Of a stretch of 64,000 nucleotides of DNA, positions 2,076-62,721 are shown in pieces. The stretch lies in the NCBI GenBank assembly GCA_022606425.2, contig JAHDVF020001045.1:744001-808000 (forward strand), written 5' to 3'. The DNA is from Lepidostoma basale. Lineage: Eukaryota > Arthropoda > Insecta > Trichoptera > Lepidostomatidae. The translations under genes were made by a program, and so were the position numbers. The notes under the pieces were generated by a model. That model ran no database searches. It worked only from the letters and a program-made list of their open reading frames with translations, and was not told where the DNA came from. Within the stretch, counting starts at the first letter, position 1; every line of letters begins with the position of its first letter.

Positions 2076-2330
2076 AATAATTAAATAAAACGATGTTTTT
2101 TAACTACTTCCACTTTTGTCTTTATTTAGACAGCTACCGGTTTCGCCAGGCTCGCTGGCATCGACAGACAGACTATCGATGCCAGCGAGCCTGGCGAAAC
2201 TGGTCGCTGTCTAAATAAAGACAAAAGTGGAAGTAGTTAAAAAACATCGTTTTATTTAATTATTATTTAAAATGAACTTCCATCAAGAGATTTCAGTAAA
2301 ATCATTTGATTATCTTAAAAAATATTTAAC
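2076..2330. repeat. HHR-P foldback element
   Basis: Near-perfect hairpin with arms of roughly 90 bp meeting near 2172. Each arm carries the ribozyme-like core in opposite orientation: ATCGATGCCAGC and CCTGGCGAAAC on the right arm, with the complement on the left. Core flanks are tctaaataaagac, gtggaagtagtt and acatcgttttattt. The right side continues into aacttccatcaagagattt, a block that recurs beside other HHR-P copies (for example about 22.15 kb). It looks like paired, inverted LTR-like ends. Confidence 0.8.
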
Positions 2331-2410
2331 GTTTGTTATTTTACAATTGTGTTTTACATTTGTGTATAAGAAAAATAAATTAAAGAATTATAGTCGATCA
2401 CGTAAGGAGT

Positions 2411-2506
2411 CTGAGAAATGTCAGGTTTGATTCCCGTGATGGCAGTGATATTGTTACATTGTCTTTGGTCTGGTATATAATTGACGTGGCATGTTAATAG
2501 ATGGCC
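2411..2506 (+). mobile_element. SINE-1 fragment
   Basis: Truncated copy of the tRNA-derived SINE. It retains a decayed internal promoter B box (GGTTTGATTCCC) and the following gtctttggtctgg body block. The A-box half and the 3' tail are missing. Confidence 0.7.
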
Positions 2507-2554
2507 AAACTATCAAAGGGAACATGGTTGTATTTTTATTATTTGCCATAGATT

Positions 2555-2675
2555 CCTAAATCATTTAGTCGTTCGGTATTCTATTATACATTGTTTTTAT
2601 ACACATTATTTTAAATGTTTCCCGGCATTTATCCTACTTTTATCTTTCTTCTGCCAGCTCCAAGCTACACTTCTC
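2555..2675 (-). mobile_element. LINE-A internal fragment
   Basis: Antisense LINE-A from the region around YGSExW / RRMCGKT. It is recognisable from ctattatacattg and ctgccagctccaag, shared with the longer minus-strand copies at 10.4 and 17.8 kb. Confidence 0.65.
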
Positions 2676-2687
2676 CCTGACATCGAA

Positions 2688-2740
2688 AGCCGTCTGTCGA
2701 TGCCGGCGAGCATGGATGAAATAAAGACCAAGGTGGTATT
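2688..2740 (+). repeat. HHR-P core fragment
   Basis: Contains ctgtcgatgcc followed by ggcgagc and ataaagacc, as in the HHR-P plus-strand core, but GAAAC is mutated, so a functional fold is not expected. Confidence 0.5.
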
Positions 2741-3670
2741 AGTTATTACAAACCTTAGCTTAATTTCTAATTTCTTTGTCGTTTAAACAAATCATTGTTT
2801 GTTATGTATGATATACTACGAGTATATAGTATATATCCAAACACACACATATGTTATTCATGCACGATTTTATAATAAAATGATTCTTTTCACAAGAGCA
2901 CTAATAAGATTCCGAGCGCCCACGGCAGAAAGCAATTTTGCCTCATAACTTGTTTGTAGGTACATATTCATAAACATACTTAGGCGCCCCCTGATAGCAG
3001 ATTTTATCCACCAAAGGATCCTTTTGATATCGATGGGATAATAACGGGAAGCGCAGCCGGAAATACTAAATTGTTTCCTTTAAAAGTACGCAATATTTAC
3101 TTCACTGTAGAATATGAAATTCGATGCATTCATAAAGTACACTTATTTAATTTCAATACTTATAAAGTCTTTTTATGAGATTAATTCAATTTTGTTACCG
3201 GTAAAAAATAATCATATTTCGAGATATACAGCAGAAATATTTGTACGCAAAATATATGTATCACTTTAAAACGCTATACCATGCGAAACGATATACCTAC
3301 CACCCGAAAACGATAACAATCCATAAACAATGTCAAAATTTTGTTTATTAATATTTATATTATAGGAGGGTCCGATGTTCTGCGGGATACCCGCTTGTAC
3401 TGCGCGGGCCAAAACTGAAAGCTGTACGTCCCTTGCCTTTATTAAGCTTATGTTAGACTATAATGATCTCAGCGAAAAAATATTTATATATTATAGTTTA
3501 TAGACAACAGTTGATATTGTTAAATTGGTCGAAGAACTGGCCTTTTTTAATGTCATAAAATATATAACATAGAACCCTTTTTGATAAATCAATAGCATAA
3601 GTGTAATAAATTAATTCTAGCCTAAAGTTCCCGTGCCAAAATATAAAACATTTCATAATAATAAATAAAA
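2741..3670. other. Unassigned
   Basis: Mixed sequence including a slightly GC-richer patch near 2.9-3.06 kb and 3.37-3.43 kb. No homology, RNA or repeat recognised. Confidence 0.4.
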
Positions 3671-3671
3671 A

Positions 3672-3860
3672 CTCGATGTTTTTTTATTTACATCTACTTG
3701 AGTATTTATTTATAAAGCCATCTGTATTTCCATAACGACCGGTTTCGCCTTCCTGGGGAAACCAGTCGTTATCGAAATAAAGACAAAAATGGAAGTAGTT
3801 ATTCAATGTCATACTTATTTAAAATTAACTTCCATCAATTGATTTCAATAAAATCAGGAG
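3672..3860. repeat. HHR-P foldback, short-armed
   Basis: Hairpin around aacgaccggtttcgcc and ggggaaaccagtcgtt, flanked by aataaagacaaaaatgg and aacttccatca, as in the better HHR-P copies. The ACCGGT palindrome is kept on the left arm, but helix II is largely lost. Confidence 0.65.
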
Positions 3861-3924
3861 ATTTTCACGAAACGATAATTCATTATCTGTTGTTTAATGT
3901 TCTGTTCAAGGTACTCTATATAAT

Positions 3925-4135
3925 TTTTCTATTTAACTTTAACTTGCACATATAATATACTAATATTTGTATTTTTTGAAATGATTTGAGTTAGTTTATA
4001 TCCTTTTCCCGTTGATAAAGGTGTATAACCTTCGGAACATGCCGAGAATACTGAACTAAAACGTGGAAAAAAATGTGTTTTGATTGATTAAGAGAGAACG
4101 ACAGCTGTTTTGCCAGTCTTCATCAACACCTGACG
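3925..4135. repeat. HHR-like pair, degenerate
   Basis: Two decayed ribozyme-like cores. The plus-strand one near 4012-4046 has TTGATAA, a complementary aaggtgtataacctt hairpin, then CGGAACATGCC. The minus-strand one near 4090-4130 has TTGATGA followed by AAAACAGCTGTC. Helix II of the second copy is deleted, so neither should be active. Confidence 0.5.
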
Positions 4136-4682: not shown

Positions 4683-4706
4683 TTTTTCCACTTTTGAGAA
4701 ATAGCC

Positions 4707-5145
4707 TTCTTTTTCTTACTTGTTTTAGACCTATGTGGTCTGTTCTCCAGAGTGTCGCTCCTCCTATGAAGTAGACTCCCAGCTATCCTTCCATTTTGTA
4801 GGAGGTCTTCCACGAGGACGAGTCCCATGAGCCTGATTATGCAATGCAATATAGGGGAGTCAGGTGGTGTCCATTCTTTGAACATGACCGTACCAGTCCC
4901 TTTTTCGCTGTCTACTTCATCTTATAATATCTTCAACCTCACATATCTCTCTTATTCTGGTGTTCCTCACGCGATCTCTCAGAGTTTTTTGTAAGTCTAA
5001 ATTGTTTTCAGCCATGATTATAGCATCGTCTGCATAACAGATTACATTGACAATTTGCTCTCCCATCCTATATCCCAGTTGTAGCGATTGGGTCTCCTCT
5101 ATAAGTTCGTCCATTATCAGATTAAACAGAAAATGAGACATAGTC
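4707..5145 (-). mobile_element. LINE-B with internal deletion
   Basis: Non-LTR retrotransposon fragment. The minus-strand frame (about 4917-5150) reads FNLIMDELIEE, then CYADDAIIMAEN (the catalytic YADD of reverse transcriptase), then LDLQKT fused directly to LRDRVRNTRIREIC, a block that normally lies much further downstream. The 3' half continues with EVEDII and ends at a (GAA)n-type tail seen as ttcttttt. The fusion removes most of the post-palm region in frame. Confidence 0.8.
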
Positions 5146-6058: not shown

Positions 6059-6111
6059 GTTGGTTGTTGTTAGGAAGGATTTAAATACAAATTTAAAAGT
6101 GTATTATAAAA

Positions 6112-7119: not shown

Positions 7120-7775
7120 ACTCATTTAAAAGTGACGCCCAAAGGGTAGGTAGCAAAGTGAATAAAGCTTTAAAAGCAGTAATTGAAAACAGAGGTGTGT
7201 CAATGAAAGCGAAAATGGCCGTTTACAGTGACGCTCTCGTTTAGATCCTTATCTATAAAAGCTTAGCATGGAACTGACATTGATTATTTATTATTTCTTG
7301 AATGATGTAAAACTTTTTATAAAATAATTAGTTATAACACGAATGAAAACGTCGGTTTTCTATAAGTTTTGTTATATTTTATGTGAATGACATGTTTCGC
7401 CTTTCTAAGGCATTATTTAACGTATTTTTTGTTTGATAATGATTAATACAAGATTTTAACATTTGATTATGGATACGACAGCCTTAATTACCTTAAACAT
7501 TTGATAATGCCTTAGACAAGCGAAACATGTTATTCCCATACAATATGATAAAACTTCTAGTAAACAGACGTTTTCATTCTTATCAATAATGAATACAGTA
7601 GATATATTATATAATTTCAAAATTTATATCAGAAAGGAAGAAAGTATTATGAACAACACTATTCACGGTTTACTGATTTGATTTGGACACAATGTGTGCA
7701 TGGATCAAGAAAGAATCGTTAAGAGAGTTTACGTTAATAATGAGAATAGAGTATGAGTCAAGGAAGTTAGTGCAA
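7120..7775 (+). mobile_element. LINE-A interrupted by HHR-T
   Basis: The first part reads RVGSKVNKALKAVIENR, MKAKMAVYSDALV, a stop, then ILIY (equivalent to VLVPTLIYGSE of the family). The second part resumes near 7.62 kb with the degenerate IMN / LIWFGHNVCMDQERI region and KRVYVNNENRV. The gap between them is an HHR-T foldback, so that element inserted after the LINE. Confidence 0.75.
7280..7612. repeat. HHR-T foldback inside LINE-A
   Basis: Inverted repeat. The left arm includes cttgaatgatgtaaaac, aaaacgtcggttttcta and gaatgacatgtttcgcc; the right arm includes gcgaaacatgttattccc and the complementary outer blocks. A ~60 bp spacer carries an additional tttgataatg copy. The GAAACATGTT boxes face opposite ways. 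Confidence 0.75.
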
Positions 7776-19977: not shown

Positions 19978-20800
19978 TTTCATTTCATTTCATTTCATTT
20001 ATTTAAAAAAAAATTACAAACATTACAGAAATATTTCCAGATCGTTTGCAATTACATTATAAGAATTTAAAAGAGAAGCATAAAAACATATAAATAAAAT
20101 AAAAAAGTTTAAGAATTATAAATAATCATAACATTGATATTGCATCCCTGAGGCAACTCATACTATCACGAAATATGTCGACCTCCGAGGCGATCCGATT
20201 AAGCAATAAGATTGCCCTACCCACAGGCATAACCATTGGCAGGTTGGTTCTGCAGCGTGGCAAATAAAACAATCTGTGCTGTCTTTGACGAAGGTAATTA
20301 TCAGGGACAAATAGGCCTACATCACTCATGACATCCGAGTTCTGTATACGGCCGCCAATCAGCTGAAAGAAGTGAACTCCCAAGTGAATGTTCCTCCTTC
20401 TCTCCAATGATTGGTAGCTTAGCATACCTAGCAAGAATTCAGTCGGAAAGAGCCATGGGTAATAACCGCGCTCCCTGAGGTAAAGAAAGCGCAGAAATTT
20501 TTTCTGCACTCGCTCCACCATCAGAGAATATCGGATCCCAGGCGGTGACCAAATAACGGAACTATATTCCAGCCGACTTCTTACCAGAAAATTATACAAC
20601 ACCCGAAGTACCGGTGTGTTCGAAAATATCTTGGCATTCCTAAAAACAAATCCAAGCATTTTAATGGAACTATTACATAGAGCAACTATGTGAAGATTGA
20701 ACGATAATTGAGCATCGAACAGAACTTCTGCGACCCAATCTTGGCCTCTATTCAGTGATCCTCTGGCTCCATCTTCCATCATCCCGTCGGCACACATGTT
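19978..20800 (-). mobile_element. LINE-D copy with (AAATG)n tail
   Basis: Longest LINE-D copy. Its 3' end at the left is a CATTT array on the plus strand, followed inward by the UTR and the open frame. It abuts the LINE-C 3' end exactly at the tail, consistent with insertion into or beside it. 5'-truncated just upstream of the thumb region. Confidence 0.85.
20126..20797 (-). CDS. LINE-D reverse transcriptase C-terminal ORF (partial)
   Basis: A 223-codon open frame without internal stops, the longest believable coding stretch in the window apart from simple repeats. Residues ~24-40 read WVAEVLFDAQLSFNLHI (the DLGVxFDxxLxFxxHI block after the RT palm). Residues ~66-84 hold LYNFLVRSRLEYSSVIWSP, the thumb signature of Jockey/CR1-type elements. 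VERVQKKFLRFLYL follows, and YLRQRQHRLFYLP and RTNLPMVMPVGRAI lie near the end. The annotated Met is only the first in frame; the true protein began far upstream. The catalytic palm and the endonuclease are missing, so it cannot self-mobilise. Confidence 0.8.
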   Translation of the reverse strand: MCADGMMEDGARGSLNRGQDWVAEVLFDAQLSFNLHIVALCNSSIKMLGFVFRNAKIFSNTPVLRVLYNFLVRSRLEYSSVIWSPPGIRYSLMVERVQKKFLRFLYLRERGYYPWLFPTEFLLGMLSYQSLERRRNIHLGVHFFQLIGGRIQNSDVMSDVGLFVPDNYLRQRQHRLFYLPRCRTNLPMVMPVGRAILLLNRIASEVDIFRDSMSCLRDAISML

Positions 20801-21079
20801 CAGCCTTAAATGCTGATCACAATTTAATATAATATATAATTTTGATCAAATCATCGATCTTCCAAATGTTTCATTATAATTTATAGAATTCACTCATATG
20901 GAAAATTTTCCTATAAAACTAACGTTTTTATCAACATGAAACTAGTTGATAGTGTTCAAATAAAATATCCATGATGACATTTTTATTATTATTTTGAAAA
21001 TCTCATGGCATTCAAAATTGGCAAACGATATAAAGGAAACACAAAAAACCATGATAAATTCTAACAAGAAGACAATCAA
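20801..21079. other. AT-rich unassigned
   Basis: Nothing recognised. Confidence 0.3.
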
Positions 21080-21360
21080 ATAATTAATGTGTTTAATTGA
21101 AATTTCTTGGTAGAAGTTCGTTTTAAATAATGAAAACAAAAAAAATTTGATACAAAATTTCGTTATTATTATGTATTTAGTGTGCTTAGATTTGTGTTTA
21201 TGTTCGACCGGTTTCGGCAGCAAGCTGCACAGAAGAATTGACCAGAAGATGGCAGCAAGCTGCCGAAACCGGTCGAACATAAACACAAGTGGAAGCACAC
21301 TAAATACATAATACTGAAGAAATTTTGTATCAATTTTCTTTTTGTTTTCATTATTTAAGA
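21080..21360. repeat. HHR-P foldback (ACCGGT type)
   Basis: Hairpin with arms about 21155-21225 and 21249-21320: atgtatttagtgtgctt, gttcgaccggtttcggcagc and its inverse. The right arm reads AGAAGA, ggcagcaagctgcc (helix II) and GAAACCGGTC. Core position C3-U4 is altered, so activity is doubtful. The flank gaaatttcttgg resembles the ccatcaagagatttc block of other HHR-P copies in reverse. Confidence 0.7.
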
Positions 21361-21735: not shown

Positions 21736-22130
21736 AAAAAGTTGGAGAAGGCCGTGTTCCTTATCACGTATCACTTACGAATAGAGACAAACAAAATGTC
21801 GTTACCGCACCAGCGACCGTCCGCCACCCGACCCGCCCTCTACGGGTCTCGCCCGCAAACTACAAACAGAATAGTGTGACCGGACCCTAATGCAATAAGG
21901 CTATATTTACACTACTTCAGCTTGGAAGCTCCGTAACCTGTAACTTTAGCGACGAATTGATAAAAATGTACGGGGAACTCTACTATAGCACACTCAAAGT
22001 ATATTATTAGTATACTTGTAATCATTGCAATTAATAGATTAATAAAATATTAAAAGTGGTATACATGTATATGATAAAGTATAAAATGCAAATAAATATA
22101 AGTAATGAATGAAAGAAAATAGTACATTCA
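21736..22130. other. Unassigned with CpG-rich patch
   Basis: About 21.80-21.89 kb (ccgtccgccacccgacccgcc and following) is strongly GC- and CpG-rich against the AT-rich background. It ends in gtgtgaccggaccc. Possibly the end of an unplaced DNA transposon; not identified. Confidence 0.35.
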
Positions 22131-22810
22131 AAGTATTTAAGATAATCAAATGATTTTACTGAAATCTCTTGATGGAAGTTCATTTTAAATAATAATGAAA
22201 TAAAACGATGTTTTTTAACTACTTCCACTTTTGTCTTTATTTAGACAGCGACCCGTTTCGCCAGGCTCGCTGGCATCGACAGACTGGTAACACTATTGTA
22301 AACTTAGTCCTTTATATACATACAGATCAGGGGTGGTAAACATGATTCTATACAAAAATATTCTTCAAATATTTATGTAAAATTTTCTGAATTTAACTAT
22401 TGGTATTACAGGTATTCTTGGAGGTTCGTATTTAATACAATGGGTTTTAATTTAATTTTGTTTTAAATTCAGTAATAATTAAAACAAAATTACCATTTTT
22501 TCAAACATTATATATGAATATGTAAGAGATAATAAAAATTAAAACCCATTGTATTAAATACGAACCCCCAAGAATACCTGTAATACCAATAGTTAAATTC
22601 AGAAAATTTTACATAAATTTTTGAAGATTATTTTTGTATAGAATCATGTTTACCACCCCTGATCTGTATGTATATAAAGGACTAAGTTTACAATAGTGTT
22701 ACCAGTCTGTCGATGCCAGCGAGCCTGGCGAAACCGGTCGCTGTCTAAATAAAGACAAAAGTGGAAGTAGTTAAAAAACATCGTTTTATTTAATTATTAT
22801 TCAACGTATT
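22131..22810. repeat. HHR-P long foldback (605 bp hairpin)
   Basis: Arms at 22195-22456 and 22535-22800 are inverted copies of each other with few mismatches. They are separated by a ~78 bp AT-rich loop that contains a smaller palindrome of its own. Each arm contains a ribozyme-like core, the ataaagacaaaagtgg flank and ~170 bp of extra sequence (ggtggtaaacatgattc) absent from the short hairpins. The left outer flank carries the complement of ccatcaagagatttc. Confidence 0.9.
22703..22743 (+). ncRNA. Hammerhead-like core, ACCGGU type
   Basis: Order of elements: CAGT (helix I), CTGTCGA (consensus CUGANGA; A6 is U here), helix II GCCAG / CTGGC, GAAA, then the self-complementary ACCGGT and C as the predicted cleavage nucleotide, then GCTG pairing with CAGT. 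The A6 change would be expected to impair catalysis. The inverted arm has a mirror copy near 22248-22288. Confidence 0.55.
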
Positions 22811-22837
22811 TGTTATTATTGTTTTCATGGGCACGCT

Positions 22838-24237: not shown

Positions 24238-24499
24238 CACACAAGATAATATAAAAGTGTATGTTTCAACGCAAAACGTTGCATATATTTTATTAATTAT
24301 TTTATCTTGTTACACATGGAAAAATTCTTGCAGAACGTAATTGAAGAGACAGATACAAATGGAGTGGTATTAAGCTGGAGACGGGAAATAGAACAACATA
24401 GAGGCTGTGTGCACGACGTGTGTGCTACGGTATTAGAAAAATCTTGCAAAATATATTTTTTTCATGAATTAGAAAAATGTTTTTTGCACTATTGAGATT

Positions 24500-24640
24500 A
24501 TTTTTCTCGTTTTTATATTATAGTTTCATACCTTCATCATCGGGAGAACAATTAATAAACATTTTATATCGTATTTATTGTTTCCTCAACAATGTTTTTT
24601 AAACTCTATTGTAACAATGGTGCAAATATCTAAAGCATTT
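24500..24640 (-). repeat. HHR-like remnant
   Basis: The minus strand reads CGATGATGAAGGTATGAAAC, so core and GAAAC are juxtaposed with helix II collapsed. Flanked by cgagaaaaataa-type sequence seen at other copies. Confidence 0.45.
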
Positions 24641-24850
24641 TTAAATTTCATTTGATAATACCTTGTCATTCACATAAATTATATTATAACATCTGTCAAA
24701 ACTGACCATATTTGTAAACAATTTTATAATATTTTTAATATTTATATAATATCACTGATGAAGGGCTGTTTAGTCCGAAAGATGTTTGATATTTAATTTT
24801 TTAATAAATGTGAGTGTTGTATACAAAGCATATAAAAAAAATAAACATTA
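24641..24850 (+). repeat. HHR-P-like element (GATGTT type)
   Basis: Shares blocks with the 61.9-62.1 kb copy: acatctgtc, ttgtaaacaa, attttataatattttt, the ribozyme core, tttaattttttaataa, and tatacaaagcatata. The two copies define a family of at least ~200 bp with the ribozyme near its middle. Confidence 0.7.
24748..24793 (+). ncRNA. Hammerhead ribozyme-like motif (best in window)
   Basis: All core parts are in order: AATATCA (helix I strand), CTGATGA (exact consensus), helix II GGGCT / AGTCC closed by GTTT, GAAA, a short GATGTT replacing the usual self-complementary ACAUGU, then TGATATT, which pairs over seven bases with AATATCA. Helix III would be minimal, as in dimer-forming hammerheads of Penelope-like elements. 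Pairings are read directly; cleavage is inferred. Confidence 0.75.
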
Positions 24851-25030
24851 AAAATCTACAACACAAAGTAGATATAATTAAACTACTTGAAAGTATTAAT
24901 TGTTTATATCGTTCTCGATGATGAAGGTATAATACCTTCGAAACATTTCGAGAAAATAAACTCGTGTGTGAAAAAAACAGTTTTTGGGTTAATAAAAATA
25001 TATATTATAGTGTTTTATTATACAAGAATT
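24851..25030 (+). repeat. HHR-P-like element (CGATGATGAAGG type)
   Basis: Core near 24917-24958: TTCTCGA, TGATGA, hairpin aaggtataatacctt, CGAAACATTTC, with outer TTCTCGA / TCGAGAA pairing. The nucleotide before UGAUGA is A rather than C. Followed by aaaataaactcg and a gtg(t)gaaaaaaacag block shared with the 4.0, 48.7 and 52.1 kb copies. Confidence 0.65.
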
Positions 25031-25194: not shown

Positions 25195-25345
25195 TGTATT
25201 TTTTACAACACTTATAATATCACAATTTTTAAATGTACGCTTTTTGAGAATGCCGCGATAACTGTTTCGCCAAGCGATGTTGGCATCATCAGGTGTTTCA
25301 AACAATTACTACTGTTGCGTGTAACACCTGATAACGCAATGAAGT
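25195..25345 (-). repeat. HHR-P-like element (GCCAAC type)
   Basis: Shares ttataatatcacaattttt and the core with the inverted pair at 36.0 kb. Single arm, no inverted partner close by. Confidence 0.65.
25247..25296 (-). ncRNA. Hammerhead ribozyme-like motif
   Basis: Minus strand: ACAC, CTGATGA (exact), helix II GCCAA / TTGGC with a six-base loop, GAAAC, then AGTTATC in place of AGCTGTC. The helix III palindrome is therefore damaged while core and helix II are intact. Confidence 0.7.
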
Positions 25346-25852: not shown

Positions 25853-25863
25853 ATTAAAAAACT

Positions 25864-27026
25864 TTTTAATTGTATCTCAATAGAGACGAAGAAACAAACT
25901 GGAAACTGAATATGGATGATCAAGGTGTTTACAGGACTTATGACCTGTCATTGGTTGGGTTAAGCGCACGCTTTATGTAATTACAACATTCCCCATTCCA
26001 CCATTGTTATTATGATCATGTATGATACATTTTTTGAAGTTGTATATATACTCCAAATTCATACTTATCTTCACGTGGCAGTTCCAGTTAGCCATCTATG
26101 TAGATTTGATTGTACTAATTAATTTTTTATGATTAATCTATACAATCCATCCACTAACGCCATCTATGAAGAATGATTGTTTAGCATTTAGCAAACTACT
26201 TTATTAACACAATGCGAAGAGGCTACCGCCTCCTATCGCACTGTTAGAAGTCGCCTGGAGTATCCACTCCTATTTTATACGCCAAATAATTGACCAGAAT
26301 ATTTACAAATATTTTGTGAAATGTATACTTACATCTGTATACGAATCCTGGATTTTCACCTGTGGGTGGTTAATTTAAATTTTTAATTGTATCTCAATAG
26401 AGACGAAGAAACAAACTGAGACAAAAAAAAAAAAAAAAATTTAAATTAACCACCCACAGGTGTAAATCCAGGATTCGTATACAGATATAAGCATACATTT
26501 CACAAATATTTGTAAATATTCTGGTCAATTATTTGGCGTATAAAATAGGAGTGGATACTCCAGGCGACTTCTAACAGTGCGCTAGGAGGCGATAGCCTCT
26601 TCGCATTGTGTTAATAAAGTAGTTTGCTAAATGCCAAACAATCATTCTTCATAGATGGCGTTAGTGGATGGATTGTATAGATTAATCTTAAAAAATTAAT
26701 TAGTACAATCAAATCTACATAGATGGCTAACTGAACTGCCACGTGAAGATAAGTATGAATTTGGAGTATATATACAACTTCCAAAAATGTATCATACATG
26801 ATCATAATAACAATGGTGGAATGGGGAATGTTGTAATTACACAAAGCGTGCGCTTAACCCAACCAATGACAGGTCATAAGTCCTGTAAACACCTTGATCA
26901 TCCATATTCAGTTTCCAGTTTGTTTCTTCGTCTCTATTGAGATACAATTAAAAATTTAAATTAACCACCCACAGGTGAAAATCCAGGATTCGTATACAGA
27001 TATAAGTATACATTTCACAAATATTT
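25864..27026. repeat. PAL-1 palindromic element, long
   Basis: A ~526 bp unit (start tttaattgtatctcaatag, end cacctgtgggtggttaattt) runs forward at 25867-26392. A second unit begins in direct orientation (26393-26420) and collapses into an A run. An inverted copy follows at 26437-26955, itself followed by the end of another inverted unit to 27026. The unit-to-unit junction sequence is the same on both sides. The direct repeat attaaaaaact lies at 25853-25863 and 27027-27037 and may be a target duplication. No coding frame. Class unknown. Confidence 0.85.
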
Positions 27027-27984: not shown

Positions 27985-28738
27985 TTTTTGGTCCAATATT
28001 TTTTGCCATCTTTCTGGCAGTAGCATGATTCCAAACTCACATTTTTTTCGTTTCTTCTAGTGATTTTTTACCTGCTCATTTGAAGTAAAGGTTTTACTGT
28101 CTAAAAAAAATTATAGAGACCGAAACAAACAATAATCAGAAGGTACAATATCTGGATAATATGGTGGGTGTGGCAGTATAACCCAACCAAGCTCTAAATT
28201 TTTTGGCCAGTTAACAAATTTGTTTGAGGTCTTGCATTATCTTGGTGGAACACTAGACCTTTTCTATTGATCAATTCTGGGCTTTTTTGTTTAAGTGAAT
28301 CATTCAATTTGTCCAGCTGATGATAGTAGATTTTTAAATTGATCGTATCGTAGAAACTAAAAAAAACGATTCCTTTGAAATCCCACCAAATAGAAAGCAT
28401 CACCTTTTTTCGTTTATATCGGTTTACGAAGTGCTTTGAGCCGGTTCACCTGTTTACTCCATAAGCTCTTGCTTTTAACATTGTTGTAGATGATGCGCTT
28501 CAAAATGGAACGAAAACTCATATTTCGAGCTTTGAGATTAAATCTAGGTGTTTCAAATGATCATGAACGGTCTGATTTGTTAAATTTAATCGCTCAGTGA
28601 TTTCACGAGATGTCATAAGCCGGTTTGCTTCAACTAATGCCTTTATTGTGTCTTCATCAGCTTAAAATGACCTTCCAGAACGTGATCCATCTTCAAACAC
28701 ATGGGATATTTTTTTTCTTGCTTGAACAGCATTTTAAC
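27985..28738 (-). mobile_element. Degenerate mariner element
   Basis: Minus-strand mariner lacking recognisable terminal inverted repeats. It contains the transposase pseudogene described separately. The left boundary is set by the last transposase residues (complement of IMLLPERWQK near 28.03 kb), the right by the EDGSRSGR linker. A gatggttagttagtaag scrap immediately right of it may be a LINE-A tail. Confidence 0.75.
28000..28735 (-). pseudogene. mariner transposase pseudogene
   Basis: In order on the minus strand: EDGSRSGR linker; ADEDTIKALVEANRLMTSRE and ITERLNLTNQTVHDHLKHLD (second helix-turn-helix); a decayed middle; MLSIWWDFKGIVFF; LNDSLKQKSPELINRKGLVF; HQDNARPQT (second catalytic Asp). 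After a frameshift come LPHPPYYPDIVPSDYCLF, where the third Asp follows PS, and finally CYCQKDGKKY / LPERWQK. The PHPPYSPDxxPSDYHLF form places it in the SETMAR/cecropia-like branch of mariners. First Asp region lost. Many stops. Confidence 0.8.
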
Positions 28739-33737: not shown

Positions 33738-33853
33738 TCTTCAATGTGAGCAGAAAATAGCTTATTATTATGAAGAAGGAATCTGGTCGTGTCTAGGTTC
33801 GAACCCAAGTCCCCTTGATCAGAAGCCAAGCGTTCTAACCCCTAGACCACCAC
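33738..33853 (-). mobile_element. SINE-2 copy
   Basis: Minus-strand tRNA-derived head: GTGGTCTAGGGGTTAGAAC (A-box region), a CTTGG / TCAAG stem-like anticodon arm, then GGGTTCGAACC (B box). The shared body is cacgaccagattccttcttc. Distinct from SINE-1; a second copy lies at 59.2 kb. Confidence 0.75.
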
Positions 33854-33894
33854 CCGATTTGATTTGATTATATGTGTGTGAATTAATCAAACAA

Positions 33895-35425: not shown

Positions 35426-35950
35426 ATTAAAATACAATCATGGTAGGTTTTAATCCTGTTTATTATTCTACAAACAAATTTTGTAACATTGTGAACTACT
35501 GTGGTAAAACAAATTGGCCTCCGTTTATCGTAGAATTAAAATCGTATATTTTATTCTCTAGTCCTATTATGCATTGTTTAATAGCAGTACACTGTTTTAT
35601 TATGTAAATAAGTCGATTTGGTAATGTGCCGTCTACTTCTTTTAGCTTGGCAAGTCACCAACAGTTTAAATTAATTTACCCGATTCCAAATATATTATTT
35701 GGCGTCGTTTTGGTTTGCTTTCACAACCATTTCAATATTCTACAATGTATGAATACTCGAATATGGCACGACATAACCAAAATAACAATTCGTAAAAATT
35801 CTAACTATTTGACCTCTTACTTAATAAAAGGAGGTCTAAACATTCATATAATACTATGTTAGTTGCAACTGGTGAAATATTCACGAAAATAAAAATTTCT
35901 TACCATTTAAAAACTTGGCCGAAACACAATGATACTTCAACTTTATTGCT
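35426..35950. other. Unassigned
   Basis: AT-rich; 67-78 codon open frames without motifs. Confidence 0.3.
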
Positions 35951-36003
35951 GCTAAAATTTAAAACACTGTTATATTATCACAATTTCTTTTTATTCACTG
36001 AGA

Positions 36004-36052
36004 GTGTTGCGACAGCTATTTCGCCAACCGAAGTTGGCATCATCAGGTGTCA
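36004..36052 (-). ncRNA. Hammerhead ribozyme-like motif
   Basis: Minus strand: GTGACAC, CTGATGA (exact), six-base-pair helix II GCCAAC / GTTGGC capped by a TTCG tetraloop, GAAA, TAGCTGTC, then GCAACAC. Helix I could form one closing pair, a 3x3 internal loop, then GUG/CAC, like natural hammerheads with loop contacts. The core is complete. Confidence 0.75.
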
Positions 36053-36082
36053 CAATTAACTCTTTCAAGTTTATTGTAAAAC

Positions 36083-36128
36083 GTGATGATGCCAACATCG
36101 GTTGGCGAAACAGCTGTCGCGACACTCT
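36083..36128 (+). ncRNA. Hammerhead ribozyme-like motif (ACAGCUGU)
   Basis: Plus strand: GTGATGA (first core C replaced by G), helix II GCCAAC / GTTGGC with ATCG loop, GAAAC, then AGCTGTC, so that ACAGCTGT is fully self-complementary and GTC is the predicted cleavage site. Best preserved helix III palindrome; the C3 change would weaken activity. Confidence 0.65.
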
Positions 36129-36233
36129 CAGTGAATAAAAAGAAATTGTGATATTATAACAGTGTTTTAAATTTTAACAGTAATAATTTAAAAACTTGGT
36201 TTACTGTATGATAGTAATCATGTAAATCAAAGT

Positions 36234-40519: not shown

Positions 40520-41828
40520 CGAGGTCTGTTCAAAAAGTATCGCGAATTTTGAATTTCCGCTGGCTACGTATATTTGATTTTTGATTTTTTTGTAGCGTTA
40601 TGTTGGTACTCATGTCCCTTACTTATGCTGACAAGGTCGGCCATTTTGAATGTTTAGTTAATTTTTGACAGCTGTTTTGCTTGGATGTGTTTTGGCTCGT
40701 CTTCGATTTTTGCCTATTCCAAAAAATGGATCAAAGAATCTGTATCAAATTTTGTGTGAAAAACAAAATAAAGTGCGCGGACGCATTTCGAATGTTGACT
40801 GTGGCATATGGTGAAGCTACCTTGGACCAAAGCAACGTTTATCGGTGGTACAAAATGTTCTCAGAGGGCCGAGAAGATATGAACGACGAAGAGCGTGCCG
40901 GACGCCCGAGCACGTCAACAACAGACGAAAACATTGATAAAGTGAAGAAAATGGTATTAGCCAATCGTCGAATCACCGTTAAAGAAGTTGCTGAGGACCT
41001 AAACATATCGATTGGCTCGTGCCATTCGATTTTAACCAATGATTTGGGCATGAGTCGGGTCGCCGCGAAATTCGTGCCAAAATTGCTCAATTTCGACCAA
41101 AACAGCATCGCGTTAACATTGCTCAGGAGATGTTGGACTCGGTCCGTGACGACCCAAATGTGCTCCAGAGGGTCATAACTGGTGACGAATCATGGGTTTA
41201 TGGTTATGACGTGGAAACCAAAGCTCAATCATCCCAATGGAAGCTGCCGCATGAGCCAAGACCAAAAAAAGCGCGCCAAGTTCGGTCGAACGTGAAGGTT
41301 TTGCTCACAGTTTTCTTCGATTGCAGGGGCGTGGTGCATCATGAGTTCTTGCCACAGGGTAGTACGGGTCAATAAGGAATATTACCTGCAAGTTATGCGC
41401 AATTTGCGCGAAGCAATCCGCCAGAAACGCCCGGATTTGTGGAAGAACAAAAACTGACTTTTGCACCATGATAACGCCCCTGCTCACACATCGTTGCTTG
41501 TGCGCGAATATTTGGCCAAAAACAACACAGTAGCCACCGTATTCCCAGACCTGGCCCCCTGTGACTTTTTCCTGTTTCCAAAACTGAAGAGGCCCATGAA
41601 AGGACGACGCTACGCCACGATTGAGGAGATAAAGACGGCATCGAAGGAGGAGCTGAACAAGATCACAAAAATGATTTTTTTAAGTGCTTCGAGGATTGGA
41701 AAAAACGTTGGCATAAATGTATTATATCCGAGGGGAATTACTTTGAAGGGGACAAAATAGATATTCATGAATAAATAAATACTTTTTGAAAAAATATAAA
41801 ATTCGCGATACTTTTTGAACAGACCTCG
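40520..41828 (+). mobile_element. mariner element, full length, inactive
   Basis: 1309 bp between TA dinucleotides (40518-40519 and 41829-41830). Terminal inverted repeats begin CGAGGTCTGTTCAAAAAGTA, continue cgcgaattt, and match at both ends. Length, TA target and transposase all fit mariner. It is inserted in an HHR-T repeat whose halves can be read on either side. Confidence 0.95.
40726..41772 (+). pseudogene. mariner transposase pseudogene
   Basis: Starts MDQRICIKFCVKNKIKCADA (first helix-turn-helix), then EDMNDEERAGRPSTST linker and VKEVAEDLNISIGSCHSILT (second HTH). Frame 1 fails near 41095. Frame 3 carries VITGDESWVYGYD (first Asp at 41184) and VKVLLTVFFDCRGVVHHEFL. After another slip near 41367 come VNKEYYLQVM, an in-frame TGA at 41455 where Trp is expected, HHDNAPAHTSLL (second Asp at 41470) and PDLAPCDFFLFPKL (third Asp at 41563). 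Spacing between the last two is 30 residues rather than the mariner-typical 34, a 12-bp deletion. A last frameshift near 41668 precedes SEGNYFEGDKI. Not functional. Confidence 0.95.
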
Positions 41829-46329: not shown

Positions 46330-46572
46330 CACTATCATAATATTTATTTTGTCATGAACAATGATGTAAAACTCCATATAAAAATAATTAATACGAATTA
46401 AAACGTCTGTTTTCTAAAATATTTATTATATTTTATGTAAATGACATGTTTCACATGTCTAAGGCACTATCAAATGAACTATTTGAGATAATGCCTTATA
46501 CAGGCGAAACTTGTTCTTTTAAAAAAAAAAAAACTTCTAGAAAACAGATGTTTTCATTTGAATTCTTCTTGT
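46330..46572. repeat. HHR-T foldback
   Basis: Arms: cgaattaaaacgtctg, tttctaaaatatttattat, gacatgtttcacatgtctaagg; and gcctta, CAGGCGAAACTTGTTC, cttctagaaaacagatg. An A run replaces part of the right arm. Confidence 0.75.
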
Positions 46573-47457: not shown

Positions 47458-47546
47458 TACGAATGAAGAAGTCTGTTCTCTAGAAGTTTTATTATATTTT
47501 ATGGGAATGACATGTTTCGCCCTTTGAAGGCATTATCAAATGTATA
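47458..47546 (+). repeat. HHR-T left arm
   Basis: acgaatgaagaagtctg, ctctagaagttttatta, gggaatgacatgtttcgccc, ttgaaggcattatcaaa. Intact arm in minus orientation of the core. Confidence 0.7.
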
Positions 47547-48262: not shown

Positions 48263-48515
48263 GATATTAACTGTTTCTTGAACAATGATGTAAAATTCCA
48301 TATTAAATAATTAATACGAATGTAAACGTCAGTTTTCTAGAAGTTTTATTATATTTTGTTGGAATGACTAAGGCATTATCAAATGTGCCTTAGAAGGGCG
48401 AAACATGTCATTCCCATAAAATATAATAAAACTTCTAGAAAACTGACCTTTTCATTCGTATTAATGATTTAATAGTGAGTTTTATATCATCGTTCAAGAA
48501 ACAATAAATATTGTA
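48262..48515. repeat. HHR-T foldback, complete
   Basis: Best-formed example. Left arm ttaactgtttcttgaacaat, tgatgtaaaattcc, acgaatgtaaacgtcag, tctagaagttttatta. Right arm CTTAGAAGGGCGAAACATGTC, attcccataaaat and the full complement to aagaaacaataaat. Arms ~105 bp. The core on the right arm is TTGATAA-like in siblings, with helix II GCCTT / AGGGC. Confidence 0.85.
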
Positions 48516-48589: not shown

Positions 48590-48815
48590 TCGCCACATTT
48601 GATAATGCATTAGAACGGCGAAACATGTCATTCCATATAAAATTTAATAAAACTCCTAGAAGACAGACGTTTTCTTTTATATTATTTAAGAATCCACAAC
48701 ACAAAGTAAAGGCGAATATGGAAGTAAATGTATTTATATCGTTATGCCGATGATGAAACATGCCGAGAAAAATGAACTCAAAAGTGGAAAAAAACGTGTT
48801 TTAATTCGTAAGAAT
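48590..48815 (+). repeat. HHR-T right arm and HHR-like copy
   Basis: First part: ttgataatgcattagaacgg, CGAAACATGTC, attcc, ctcctagaagacagacg. From 48685: atccacaacacaaagtaaa, then ccgatgatgaaacatgccg, where the core and box are fused without helix II, and gaactcaaaagtggaaaaaa as at 4.0 and 52.1 kb. Confidence 0.65.
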
Positions 48816-50450: not shown

Positions 50451-50599
50451 GTTTTTTTCCTTATTGAGTTTGATTACGTTTATATTTGTCATCCGTAGAC
50501 CAGTAATTGGGTTCAAACGACCCGTTGTATATAAAAAGGAAAGAAAAAACATTTTACTTTTTATATTCCGCAGCTGTAAACAAATATGCTTTAAAATAA

Positions 50600-50790
50600 T
50601 ATAATTATATACTTGTAAAATACATACGTAAGCCACTTTATTCGTTACAAACACCAACCGGTTTCGCTCCCGCCGGAACTTCGTCAGGGTAACAGAACAT
50701 GCTGATTAGAAACTCCGGCGGGAGTGAAACTGGTTGATGCTTATAACAAATAAAGTGGTTTACATAAAAAATTACAAGTGTATTATTATT
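50600..50790. repeat. HHR-P-like foldback
   Basis: Arms 50628-50680 and 50707-50762: gccactttattcgttac and complement, caaccggtttcgctcccgcc and complement. The left arm core is complete on the minus strand. The right arm core (CTGATTAG, then aaactccggcgggagtg, GAAACTGGTT) carries an inserted base run. Confidence 0.85.
50645..50693 (-). ncRNA. Hammerhead ribozyme-like motif (CUGACGA)
   Basis: Minus strand: GTTACC, CTGACGA (fits CUGANGA, as position 7 is free), helix II GTTCC / GGAGC with GGCG loop, GAAA, then ACCGGT (self-complementary, sharing the last A) and T before GGTG, which can pair with TACC. All conserved core positions are present. Confidence 0.75.
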
Positions 50791-50834
50791 ATATTTAATA
50801 ATGCCACACCACAATTTAAGTACTGAACCGAAGC

Positions 50835-51284: not shown

Positions 51285-51390
51285 TCGAAATCTACAGACT
51301 GGTCTGTCAAAGCCAGGCAGCCTGGCGAAACCGGTCTCTGTCAAACTAAGAAGTTATGAAAAACATCATTTTATCAAATTGTTAATATAT
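51285..51390 (+). repeat. HHR-P core fragment
   Basis: gactggtctgtcaaagcc, aggcagcctggc, GAAACCGGTC, tctgtcaaactaag, aaaaacatcattttatc. Helix II and GAAACCGGTC are intact. The first strand reads CTGTCAA rather than CUGANGA. Confidence 0.65.
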
Positions 51391-51808
51391 TCGTATTATG
51401 AACCAATTTGAAGAACCGTTTTAGAGATATTGTTGTGAAAGTACTTTCAAGGCTGAATTTCCCAATTATTAAGTGTATTTATCATTTATCAGCCAGCATC
51501 CCTCGGAAAAGATTAATTTATAATAAAATTAACGCTTTATATTAAACGATTCGGAAGTGTGACCTTTGCATCGCAAAAACAATTTTCGTTCCGTTCGGCT
51601 ATCAAAGAAAGTTTCAACTTTTGTGCTTTAATTAAAAACGAGATAGCTATGAGAATTTTAATTACACCTTTACAGGGAGCATTATTTATAACAAAATAAT
51701 TAAACGCCCGTAAAATCTAATGAATGCCATTTTTAACTAAATATTTTTTTAAATTATCAAATGTTTTTCCTGAATTATTTTGATAAAAGTTTACTTAAAT
51801 TAATAATG
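51391..51808. other. Unassigned
   Basis: AT-rich; no recognised element. Confidence 0.3.
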
Positions 51809-51809
51809 A

Positions 51810-52012
51810 AATAAAACGAACTTCTTTAATAACCACTTCGATTTTTTGGCGTTATTTCGACAGCGACCGGTTTCTCCAAGGCTAGAAACAGACTTGTATG
51901 TTAATGACAGCCTGATCAGTCTGTCGATGCCCTTTAGCCTGGCGAAACCGGTCGCTATCTAAATAAAGGCAAGAGTAGAATGAGTTATCAAAACAAATAG
52001 TTTTATACAATT
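51810..52012. repeat. HHR-P foldback, asymmetric
   Basis: Left arm aaaacgaacttctttaataa, tttcgacagcgaccggtttc. Right arm CAGTCTGTCGATGCCC, ttta, gcctggc, GAAACCGGTC, gctatctaaataaaggc. Arms have diverged. A ~50 bp spacer contains aacagacttgtatgttaatg. Confidence 0.75.
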
Positions 52013-52029
52013 ATTACATATGTTTTAAT

Positions 52030-56400: not shown

Positions 56401-56612
56401 GATTTTTTATAAACTACAATACAAACGCTGTTTTTTTTCCCCATTCAGATTATTTTTCGAAGGTTTTACACCTTCATCATCAAGATAACTATATAAACTG
56501 AACATTTCCCGATTATGACGATATAAAACCTTCGAAACATTTAATAAAAATAAACTCAAAAGTAGACAAAATACTTTTTCATTCACAAAAATGTCATTAT
56601 GGAATACCACAA
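56401..56612. repeat. HHR-like foldback (AAGG type)
   Basis: Minus core near 56455-56490 (TGATGATGAAGG, tgtaaaacctt, CGAAAAA) and plus core near 56515-56550 (TGACGA, tataaaacctt, CGAAACATTT) with aaaataaactcaaaagtag. Inverted arrangement with weakened cores. Confidence 0.6.
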
Positions 56613-56639
56613 CGCCAGCCTTGACACAATTGACTCAAT

Positions 56640-56905
56640 TTCTTTATTGTTTCTTGAAATATGGATTAAAATAAAACTGAATATTACGCTTAGGAAATTG
56701 AAAATAACTTTGTTTAATCCACTATTTATTAAAAAATATTAAACGCAAAAACACGACATGTTTGGATACCTCCATCTTCAGGTGTAAAAATACTATTTTA
56801 CACCTAAAGATAGAGGTATCCTCCGAAACATGGCGTATTCTTTGATATTTTTTTTAATAAATAGTGGATTAACAACAAAGTTATTTTCAAATTTCTAAGT
56901 ATATT
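56640..56905. repeat. HHR-like foldback (GGAGGTATCC type)
   Basis: Arms of ~105 bp: taactttgtttaatccacta, ttattaaaaaatatt, acatgtttggatacctcc, and complement to ctccgaaacatggcg. The left arm on minus: CTGAAGA, GGA / TCC, AAACATGTC. The right arm on plus: CTAAAGA, gaggtatcctc, CGAAACATGGC. Spacer ~10 bp. Confidence 0.75.
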
Positions 56906-57044
56906 ACTATGGAATTCCACAGTTTCAATGCCTTGGCGTTCAATAAGTTGAATATTACGAGTACACCATTATTTTTTAATATTATATGCAGTATTATCAT
57001 ATATAAATACATTCTTGTTGAGTATATATTGTATATACATTCCT

Positions 57045-58666: not shown

Positions 58667-58682
58667 TAATAACATTAATTAA

Positions 58683-59237: not shown

Positions 59238-59425
59238 ATAGTGGTGGTCTAGGGAATAGAATGCTTGGCTCCTGATCCAGGGGACTTGGATTCAAGCCTG
59301 GACACGACTAGATTCCTTCTTCATAGTAATGAACTATTTTCTGCACATATTGTATATTATATAATAAATTCTAATACCATTGAATAAAATCCTTGGTGTT
59401 ATTATTTTTTTTTAATAAAAATAAA
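59238..59425 (+). mobile_element. SINE-2 copy
   Basis: GTGGTGGTCTAGGGAATAGA (A-box side), CTTGG / TCCAG arm, ACTTGGATTCAAGCC (B box, drifted), cacgactagattccttcttc, then a body to ttctaataccattgaataa and a T-rich end. Slightly more decayed in the promoter than the 33.7 kb copy but longer. Confidence 0.75.
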
Positions 59426-59535
59426 ACTAACTTTTACCAGAATGTACTGAAATTGCATTTAACTATTAACTAACTAAATTGTATTTAAGTATTAACTCGT
59501 ATAGCTAACAGTTCCCCCGGTGCGGAATACGCGCA

Positions 59536-60113
59536 AAGAAGAAGAGGAGGAAGAGGAAGAAGAGAAAGAGGAGAAAGAGGAGAAAGAGAGAGAGGAAGAA
59601 GAGGAGGAAGAGGAGGAAGAGGAGGAAGAGGAGGAAGAGGAGGAAGAGGAGGAAGAGGAGGAAGAGGAGGAAGAGGAGGAAGAGGAGGAAGAGGAGGAAG
59701 AGGAGGAATAGGAGGAAGAGGAGGAAGAGGAGGAAGAGGAAGAAGAGGAAGAAGAGGAAGAAAAGGAAGAAGAGGAAGAAGATGAAGAAGAGGAAGAAGA
59801 TGAAGAAGAGGAAGAAGAGGAAGAAGAGGAAGAAGAGGAAGAAGAGGAAGAAGAGGAAGAAGAGGAAGAAGAGGAAGAAGAGGAAGAAGAGGAAGAAGAT
59901 GAAGAAGAGGAAGAAGAGGAAGAAGAGGAAGAAGAGGAAGAAGAGGAAGAAGAGGAAGAAGAGGAAGAAGAGGAAGAAGAGGAAGAATAGGAAGAAGAGG
60001 AAGAAGAGGAAGAAGAGGAAGAAGAGGAAGAAGAGGAAGAAGAGGAAGAAGAGGAAGAAGAGGAAGAAGAAGAAGAGGAAGAGGCAGAAGAGGTGGAAGA
60101 AGAAGAAGAAGGA
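59536..60113. repeat. ~580-bp purine tract, 9-bp units
   Basis: Pure GA-strand repeat. It opens with irregular gaggaagaag, then an array of GAGGAGGAA units to about 59735, then GAAGAGGAA units to the end. A few T interruptions (for example gaagaagatg) recur at regular spacing. Open frames here (polyGlu on plus, polySer on minus) are artefacts of the repeat. Confidence 0.95.
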
Positions 60114-60817: not shown

Positions 60818-60954
60818 TACAGTAGCGAGCAGAGAAATCTTTTCACCCTGAAAATATCGGTTTTTTGTAATTATATATATATTTTTGTGATTCCTTGATA
60901 GCTTTTCACTCCAAATTATTAAGCATGGAAAATGCATTGGAAAATGCACTCAAA

Positions 60955-61550
60955 AATATAAGAATGTGTCTAAGACCGACAGTGAAGCATCCTGCTGGAC
61001 AAATGGTCTGGGGATGCTTCTCCTTTTATGAAGTGGAGCAATTAGCATTCATGAAAGGAACTGTGAATGCAGAAATTTACAAAAAAAATCTGGAGGAGTT
61101 TTATCCCCGCCAATTGAAATGCACGAAGTGCACGCCAATTGAGTGCATTTTTCAAGATGACTCTGCACTGTGCCACCTAGCAAAAACTGTAAGTATTATT
61201 TTTTTCTGACACTGTGATGTTCACAAAACTATAATGTTCACAAAACAATATTTAAAAAATATAACACTATTAAAATAATTTTGAGGTCAAAGAATATATG
61301 AAAATTCATGGGATTCCAACACTGGATTGGCCCGGAAATAACTCTGACCTAAACCATATCGAGAACTTGTGGCATAAAATGGCAATTGAAATAAATAAAC
61401 TGAAGCCTCCGTCAAAGTAAAACCTTAAAACTTCATCGAAAAAGTGTGATTGAAAAATTTATCCAAGACTACATACATAATTTGGTGAAATCCATGCCTA
61501 AACGTATTGAAGCAGTTATTTTAAAAAAAGGAGGAGGAACAAAGTACTGA
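60955..61550 (+). pseudogene. Tc1 transposase catalytic domain, with probable intron
   Basis: Exon-like part 1: RMCLRPTVKHPAGQMVWGCF, SFYEVEQLAFMKGTVNAEIY, then ECIFQDDSALCHLAKT (second catalytic Asp). A 97-bp stretch 61189-61285 begins GTAAGT and ends TTTTGAG. Its removal joins LAKT to VKEYMKIHGIPTLDWPGNN and DLNHIENLW in frame. Across that join the Asp-to-Glu spacing is 34 residues, as in Tc1 (DD34E). One frameshift after KLKPPSK, then VIEKFIQDYIHNLVKSMPKR and KGGGTKY with a stop at 61548. The first catalytic Asp and the HTH domains are absent. Confidence 0.85.
61189..61285 (+). other. Candidate spliceosomal intron (97 bp, phase 0)
   Basis: Consensus 5' splice site GTAAGT, AT-rich body, 3' end ATTTTGAG. 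It falls between codons and restores both frame and DD34E spacing. Alternative: a small AT-rich insertion that happens to have GT-AG ends. Confidence 0.6.
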
Positions 61551-61874
61551 TTTTATTGGTTTTTGATCATTGTTAGTGTTATATACCTATGTTATTTAAA
61601 AAAAATATATGTGTTTATTTAAATTATGTGAGCATTTTGAATTTTTGTGCCAAAAATCGAAAATCTATAAATTAACTCTAAAATTAAGAAAAAAATTTTT
61701 TTGATCCCTAAGGAGGCACTTTTCTTGCAGATCATCTTTAAACAGTGTTGTTTAATAATTTGGAGAGAAAAGCTATCAAGGAATCACAAAATATATATAT
61801 ATATATATAATTACAAAAAACCGATATTTTCAGGGTGAAAATATTTCTGTGCTCGCTACTGTAAATATTATAAA

Positions 61875-62110
61875 ATTGTAGTTGTTTACATGATCTGACA
61901 GATGTTTAACATCTGTCTAACATCTGTCTGATCATGTAAACAACATCAATTTTATAATATTTTTATTAATATGTATCTTCACTGAAGAAGGACTATTTGT
62001 CCGAAACATGTCTATGTAATTTTATTTTTTTAATATCAGTGATATATATACAAAGTGCATAGAAATAAACCATCATAACAACACAAAGTATGGCGTATAT
62101 AGAAGAAATA
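61875..62110 (+). repeat. HHR-P-like element (ACATGTC type)
   Basis: Starts with a hairpin tgtttacatgatc / gatcatgtaaaca containing threefold aacatctgtc. Then attttataatattttt, the core, ttttatttttttaata, tatacaaagtgcata and caacacaaagtatgg. Partner of the 24.7 kb copy. Confidence 0.75.
61974..62020 (+). ncRNA. Hammerhead ribozyme-like motif (ACAUGU)
   Basis: CTGAAGA (U7 is free, but this reads A at position 7 with G8 kept, so it fits CUGANGA), helix II GGAC / GTCC with a TATTT loop, GAAA, self-complementary ACATGT (sharing the last A) and C as cleavage nucleotide. Core complete; helix I pairing is poor, which weakens the prediction. Confidence 0.65.
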
Positions 62111-62164
62111 TTTAATAATTGTTTATTCCTACTTTATATGAAATCTTACAGACAAATAGGGGAA

Positions 62165-62272
62165 AACGTTACACGATCAAATCAATCAAATATTGAATGT
62201 CGGTAGTGAGGAGTGGGCGGAGAGAAATCGACGTGCATGCATAAAACAATGTATACATGTTGAGGAAGTTCA
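62165..62272 (+). mobile_element. LINE-A fragment
   Basis: HDQINQILNVGSEEWAERNR, RACIKQCIHVEE. It stops at gttcattttg and joins a LINE-B end. Confidence 0.7.
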
Positions 62273-62274
62273 TT

Positions 62275-62420
62275 TTGTTGTACGACCAACCCCAAAGCAG
62301 ACGACCCCCGGGCACACCACCAAAGAGATGGATCGACAGTTTGAAATCGATCAATTCCTCTTGAGAAACAAGCCACAAGGCCTACATTAAGAAGACAAAG
62401 AAGAAGAAGAAGAATTAGAA
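62275..62420 (+). mobile_element. LINE-B relative, 3' end with (GAA)n tail
   Basis: PTPKQTTPGHTTKEMDRQFE, FLLRNKPQGLH, then gacaaagaagaagaagaaga. Corresponds to the 18.6 kb subfamily. Confidence 0.75.
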
Positions 62421-62600
62421 ATGAACAATATCTCAGTGAAAACCAGGAAATAAATATTTCGGGATTGAAAAAACATATCCACCCACGCTATAGGCAAGAA
62501 CATGGCCCCGTGACCTTTAACATCTGTGGAAATTTGTGGCTAGATTCCTATAAACATGTTTACCTACCATCAATAGATTCGATGAAATACAGTTTATTTA
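62421..62600. other. Unassigned
   Basis: No recognised element. Confidence 0.25.
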
Positions 62601-62604
62601 TAAA

Positions 62605-62721
62605 ATAATAAAACAATTTGTATTTTACCTCACAAGTATACAATGTTTTAAATTTTATATTGCCCTGAAGAAGCTTGGGTCCAAGCGAAACTATTATATT
62701 TTGCATCAATTATAATAACCA
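62605..62721 (+). repeat. HHR-like element, left part
   Basis: aataaaacaatttgtatttt (62608 onward) is inverted at 63061-63085 on the far side of LINE-F. The ribozyme-like core lies between. Confidence 0.7.
62665..62700 (+). ncRNA. Hammerhead ribozyme-like motif
   Basis: CTGAAGA (fits CUGANGA), six-base-pair helix II GCTTGG / CCAAGC with a two-base GT loop, GAAAC, then TATTATATT with no evident palindrome. Helix III and the cleavage triplet are not identifiable, so it is core-only. Confidence 0.5.

Follow-up and report, generated by a model that had tools for sequence, protein, structure and literature searches.

A 64,000-nt stretch of the genome of the trichopteran Lepidostoma basale (contig JAHDVF020001045.1; the whole stretch is hereafter called the window) contains about 30 small hammerhead copies that are spread over its length and in many cases are paired head-to-head. 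These elements are very probably copies derived from Penelope-like elements (PLEs) that carry no coding region and were reverse transcribed from both ends of a cut. The type I core (CUGANGA, GAAA and a cleavage site) joining three helices was present by structure scan, by alignment and by covariance model. In line with the original prediction of 20 or more hammerhead-like loci, the structure scan located 22 and the covariance model 29 at E<0.01, and copies were also seen slightly beyond the 2076..62721 span first considered (about 316-527).

The structure scan weighted the core, helix II, helix III and C17, allowed one nucleotide between A9 and helix II, and left helix I unscored. At a score of at least 22 it returned 22 loci, compared with a mean of 1.6 per shuffle over 20 dinucleotide shuffles, and at a score of at least 24 it returned 13 compared with 0.3. 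The best loci have the look of a minimal type I hammerhead, for example CUGAUGA-U-GCCAAC-uucg-GUUGGC-GAA-AUAGCUGU-C at 36011-36046 on the minus strand. A single extra nucleotide followed A9 in 21 of the 22 loci, and an extra A or U was found there in all 16 of the cores that were aligned.

Covariation was measured on these 16 cores, which were hand-picked from the structure scan and carry nine family labels. For helices I, II and III together with the C3-G8 pair, covariation was 0.449 against 0.182 in 500 shuffles (sd 0.026), and pairing with slid partners gave at most 0.154. As helices II and III and the core had served to find the loci, helix I provides the fairer test; taken alone it gave 0.436 against 0.188 (sd 0.047), with slid partners at or below 0.221. 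Helix I is short, since 56% of its cells are paired. The earlier claim that helix II stays complementary while differing between loci is borne out, with compensatory change both overall and in helix I.

A covariance model trained on the 16 cores (R1), whose E-values are rough by the tool's own statement, found 29 matches in the window at E<0.01, made up of the 16 training rows and 13 new ones, and 34 at E<=0.054. With 60 nt added 3' of each, 34 matches (E<=0.06) cover 5.7% of the window. When the largest family (A) was omitted from training (model R2), two A copies were recovered at E 0.004-0.005, two more at 0.028-0.05 and six further copies at 0.12-2.4, and 5 of the 15 known A loci were absent at E<=3. 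Scan, covariation and covariance model agree on the predicted form, a minimal type I hammerhead whose tiny helix III is palindromic.

Within-window BLAST searches separated the copies into groups A (21 hits, some partial), B with H, C, D, E, F, G, I and J, and joined no families other than B with H. These approximately nine families share a CUGANGA-type core, the extra A or U, a covarying helix II, GAAA and, for the most part, a palindromic helix III. All three helix III sequences reported to recur were located: ACCGGU in families B, C, E and H, ACAUGU in A, F, I and J, and ACAGCUGU in D. Helix III is palindromic or nearly so, and below normal hairpin length, in A, B, C, D, E, F, I and J; family G has no palindromic helix III. 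Because helix III is too short for a normal hairpin, cleavage as a dimer would be the expected mode for these sequences. The CUGANGA-like strand stood in part: it is exact in D, E, F, G and one J arm, and altered in A, B and I. By eye, AATAAA followed by AGTGG could be recognized 3' of the core in B, E and J, with similar letters in C and I, and CAAGAAACAATAAA was present in the tails of A and J. Tail stem-loop folds differ from family to family. One F copy has an AC-rich stem-loop, ATCTAC-AACACAAA-GTAGAT, at 24820-24900, about 70 nt past the cleavage site; its loop (near 24854-24873) recalls the AC-rich loop at which reverse transcription of a PLE starts (PMC11167929).

The layout of the copies resembles that of the inverted pseudo-long terminal repeats (pLTRs) of Penelope, in keeping with the original prediction. 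Among 46 matches at E<=1, neighbors within 150 bp were head-to-head in 9 of 11 cases and direct in two (each joining different families), and none were tail-to-tail; for the 29 matches at E<=0.01 the corresponding numbers were four, one and zero. Each arm extends outward from just before the core. Measured past the cleavage site in 28 non-reference arms, 15 ends fell at +53 to +75, three at +80 to +88, nine at +96 or beyond and one at +14, these ends being set by local alignment to a reference arm, in which chance overrun is possible.

Target-site duplications of 12-14 bp exceeded displaced controls in 4 of 16 pairs, namely D, B1, J and B2 (Table 1). In these pairs the shorter arm ended at +59 (B2), +60 (B1), +67 (D) and +73 (J) and the longer arm at +111, +113, +92 and +143, respectively, so that the longer end, or tail, occurs on one side only. 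This asymmetry was not built into the search, because one end was held near the inner site and the other was left free. TATA boxes were found on both B2 arms (TATATAAAGG, at -36) and in the A copy at 48599 (TATATAAA, at -35). Overall, TATAWA occurred within 60 nt of 5 of 26 cores, many of which lie in short pairs without upstream sequence. A transcript starting about 30 nt downstream of the box would have its 5' end within or beside the 5' strand of helix I, where the arms of the short pairs are joined.

Many of these features have counterparts in PLEs of the Penelope/Poseidon clade. Copies of Penelope in Adineta are described as having inverted pLTRs, one of which may carry a 31-bp tail at its 3' end; duplications of 8-10 bp accompany some but not all of the copies, the joint contains palindromes, head-to-head is the commonest inverted order, and the pLTR contains a TATA box. 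In one case such ends mobilized an unrelated gene in trans (PMC3846280). According to a guide to transposable element curation, PLEs are marked by short 3' extensions and by pLTRs in inverted orientation (PMC8969392). In vitro, an Anolis PLE cut and extended both strands and preferred AT-rich targets; reverse transcription started at two internal sites that bound the tail, uncleaved RNA was the substrate, and the hammerhead needed help from the protein (PMC11167929). Minimal type I hammerheads are reported to be dispersed by the thousands, some of them mapping to PLE pLTRs (PMC7761336). The window elements share with these PLEs the head-to-head inverted pLTRs, the single optional tail, short duplications, AT-rich targets, the minimal type I hammerhead, a TATA box before the start and the geometry of reverse transcription starts. 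They differ in that no coding region was found here, the inverted arms meet almost directly, and the tails are about 25-70 nt compared with the 30-40 published.

Small hammerhead variants of Penelope-like retrotransposons that cleave as dimers were reportedly described by Lunse, Weinberg and Breaker in 2017; going by its title, that work resembles ours in concerning small, PLE-tied hammerheads, and presumably in their tiny helix III. Terminons and Athena elements have PLE-type minimal hammerheads in common with the window elements; they are described as telomere-linked giant elements, and no telomere-like repeat was seen at the ends of the window elements inspected. Among the literature matches listed, judged by titles and the starts of abstracts, none described two-armed elements that consist solely of hammerhead ends placed head-to-head. 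The kind of hammerhead is already known (the minimal PLE hammerhead), and the compact two-armed pairs are not claimed as new to science.

These observations can be arranged in a mechanism in which a PLE protein, acting in trans, would cut AT-rich DNA in a staggered fashion, leaving two 3' ends that would each prime reverse transcription of the element RNA. One end would prime at an inner start, about +60-70 from the cleavage site, and the other at an outer start in the tail. Both cDNAs would run to the 5' end of the RNA, as set by a promoter with a TATA box about 35 nt upstream of the core, and would then be joined 5'-to-5'. Since the hammerhead is present in the arms, the RNA copied would have been uncleaved. 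Weak cutting of tandem or paired transcripts is the probable activity of the hammerhead, which would act as a dimer via helix III or with help from the protein. The copies may form a self-sustaining non-autonomous lineage, in the sense of the original prediction, or may be 5'-truncated remains of autonomous PLEs. A more specific proposal, which we advance tentatively and at somewhat less than even probability, is that these "mini-Penelopes" form a distinct, repeatedly arisen non-autonomous class, in which RNA starting at helix I is reverse transcribed from the two ends of one cut to give a 5'-to-5' palindrome, and in which the cores diversify (U3-A8, the extra nucleotide after A9) while the fold is kept.

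A rather unlikely alternative, although one that also derives the elements from PLEs, is that the pairs arose by self-priming (snap-back) on an antisense template, as was suggested for Adineta Penelope on the basis of its joint palindromes (PMC3846280). The joints in the window do appear palindrome-rich by eye. A snap-back copy should, however, repeat the tail, whereas in the four pairs that bear duplications just one side carries the longer end, and the PLE studied in vitro uses the same start sites when it extends each of the two cut strands (PMC11167929). For these reasons two-ended priming is favored over snap-back. Arm identity was tried as a means of separating snap-back from two templates and was set aside as non-discriminating, as the differences in B1 and B2 look private to single arms.

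Two other alternatives place the elements outside the PLEs. They could be miniature inverted-repeat transposable elements (MITEs) that were moved by a transposase and whose terminal inverted repeats resemble hammerheads by chance. The elements are indeed compact, palindromic and without a coding region (240-300 bp), the window contains a mariner relic, and a MITE-rich insect genome is on record (PMC8576890). We nevertheless regard this origin as highly improbable: the ends are asymmetric, with one arm exceeding the other by 25-70 nt in the four duplication-bearing pairs, the duplications vary in length between elements (12-14 bp) instead of being fixed, the core covaries across families that BLAST does not join, and single-arm copies are present. 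It is hardly probable at all that they are animal non-LTR retrozymes, tandem repeats of 170-400 bp with type I hammerheads that spread via circular RNA. Retrozymes share with the window elements a small non-coding repeat and a type I hammerhead, insects are among their hosts, and PLEs have been proposed as their movers (PMC7229834). Nonetheless, they are described as direct tandem arrays, with circular RNAs and, in invertebrates, a more stable helix III (PMC7761336, PMC7229834), whereas the window has head-to-head pairs with hammerheads of the minimal PLE kind; the two direct neighbors within 150 bp belong to different families, and Tandem Repeats Finder reported no array of hammerhead arms in the window.

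A number of results weigh against the hammerhead assignment or against a PLE-derived, two-ended origin. A strict scan without the extra nucleotide after A9 returned no locus in the window, and the scan was therefore loosened; with up to two core mismatches it gave 13 rows, inside the range of 30 shuffles (3-13), and the better-scoring rows alone rose above the shuffles. Exact CUGANGA-N-GAAAC was weakly enriched, with 5 matches compared with 0.77 expected, a count reached in 1 of 100 shuffles. The standard Rfam hammerhead models, a search put forward with the original prediction, lent no support at any cut-off tried: no match to the Rfam 15 models reached the gathering cut-off, the 20 window matches at E<=10 and the 52 in 36000-36130 included no hammerhead, and 25249-25299 had no Rfam match of any kind. 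The short helices and extra nucleotide are probably the reason for this miss. The Rfam matches that did occur (microRNA precursor, small RNA and other families) were rejected as below curated cut-offs, those at elements fitting long foldbacks, and an exact CUGANGA match at 28317 was discarded because its fold does not fit. Searches with the family cores gave no matches in viral and genome contig collections, neither of which was made for animal genomes.

The remaining contrary points concern the copies themselves and their surroundings. Many copies are decayed. Family A has the core UUGAUAA throughout, with U3-A8 replacing C3-G8; a C3G/G8C double change at this pair partly restores the activity of a PLE hammerhead (PMC11167929). 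The family-wide changes in B (CUGUCGA, A6 to U) and I (CCGAUGA-like, U4 to C) may mean loss of cleavage. Within 700 bp at E<=1, neighbors were head-to-head in 10 cases, direct in 7 and tail-to-tail in 5, a count that mixes separate insertions. Twelve of the 16 pairs showed no duplication above displaced controls, the B2 duplication was marginal in the wider test, and chance alone should yield about one result of this kind in 16 pairs. Tail sequence apparently lies on both sides of the A pair at 48297-48478, which is an exception. Lastly, neither a PLE reverse transcriptase nor a GIY-YIG domain was found by a Pfam scan of 20 of the 28 open reading frames in the window (>=110 aa), and a crude motif search of the window found relics of other reverse transcriptases and none of a PLE.

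Table 1. Hammerhead-bearing elements, single copies and associated features in the window
Feature	Position	Strand	Details
Element B1, head-to-head pair of B arms	2075..2318		Cores 2135-2167 minus, 2173-2205 plus; tail on right arm, ~2266-2318; 94.6% inverted self-match over 2069-2271
B1 target-site duplication AAAATATTTAAC	left 2063..2074, right 2319-2330		12/12; displaced controls 1/200, 1/100
Element B2, longer head-to-head pair	22139..22798		Cores 22250-22282 minus, 22707-22739 plus; tail on left arm; ~164 nt upstream of each B arm kept
B2 imperfect duplication	22126-22138 / 22799-22811		12/13; displaced controls 0/200, wider test 6/100
B2 TATATAAAGG box	22671..22680	+	36 nt before core; inverted copy 22309-22318 minus
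Element D, head-to-head pair	35919..36185		Tail on left arm
D minus core	36011-36046	-	CUGAUGA; helix III AUAGCUGU
D plus core	36083-36118	+	GUGAUGA; helix III ACAGCUGU
D target-site duplication ATTTAAAAACTTGG	left 35905..35918, right 36186-36199		14/14; displaced controls 0/200, 0/100
Element J, head-to-head pair	56612..56907		Cores 56755-56781 minus, 56804-56834 plus; tail on left arm
J duplication	56598-56611 / 56908-56921		13/14; displaced controls 3/100; missed by narrower-range test
Element C, head-to-head pair	21123..21358		21236-21282 plus (E 1.6e-06), 21198-21239 minus (E 0.49)
Element E, head-to-head pair	50594..50796		50656-50687 minus (CUGACGA, ACCGGU); 50702-50735 plus, decayed
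Element B3, head-to-head pair of B arms	51796..52021		51921-51953 plus; 51857-51887 minus, decayed (E 0.85)
Single B-like core, label H	51304..51336	+	Structure scan; R1 E 5.5e-06
Family A head-to-head pair	7330..7590		Cores 7389-7419 minus, 7501-7531 plus; tail sequence on left arm
Family A head-to-head pair	316..527		Matches 377-420 minus, 421-466 plus
Family A head-to-head pair	46374..46580		Matches 46435-46480 minus, 46478-46524 plus
Family A core UUGAUAA-U-GCC..GGC-GAAACAUGUC, U3-A8 variant	47509..47539	-	R1 E 4.3e-07; R2 E 0.0046
Family A single copy	48599..48629	+	TATATAAA 35 nt upstream
Family D single copy, CUGAUGA core	25249..25299	-	Tail sequence resembles that of element D
Family F core CUGAAGA-A-GGAC..GUCC-GAA-ACAUGU-C	61982..62012	+	R1 E 4.2e-07
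Family F core	24755..24786	+	6-bp helix I AUAUCA/UGAUAU; structure scan, R1
Family G core CUGAAGA-A-GCUUGG..CCAAGC-GAAAC	62665..62696	+	R1 E 0.024; R2 E 0.012; in neither training set
Family I core (U4 to C type)	24915..24949	+	Structure scan
Other family I copies	near 3993, 24450-24568, 52053, 56452-56498, 56506	+, -, +, -, + (in order)	

Other repeats and relics were also noted in the window. The center of B2 consists of 82 nt (22454-22535) between arms that are 98% identical in inverted orientation. A near-perfect palindrome of about 1.1 kb (25860-26957, arms 98-99%) encloses an inner 154-bp palindromic, MITE-like unit at 26333-26486, and about 64 copies of the 9-bp unit GAAGAAGAG are arrayed at 59538-60111. 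The mariner relic is a broken Mos1-type transposase at 40669-41375 (Pfam HTH_48, Transposase_1). A tRNA-like match at 33784-33854 scored just below the Rfam cut-off (27.8 vs 29 bits); the region has an 84% inverted relative at 59241-59407 and is possibly a tRNA-derived short interspersed element. A reverse-transcriptase relic of the long interspersed element type lies at 20126-20845 and is 60% identical to a JGI protein with PF00078, and the crude motif search placed YADD-type reverse-transcriptase relics near 5025 and 49293. The mariner and long interspersed element relics would fit an arthropod host.

The mode of PLE insertion is described as still largely open (PMC11167929). The dense, short head-to-head copies in this window, taken together with their duplications, the two arm-end positions and the promoter-like box, make two-ended priming directly testable, and the ribozyme variants (the U3-A8 pair and the extra base after A9) form a set for activity measurement. 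If the proposed mechanism is true, each palindromic insertion would be a record of bilateral target-primed reverse transcription, and the compact pairs may help show how PLEs copy themselves into a genome.

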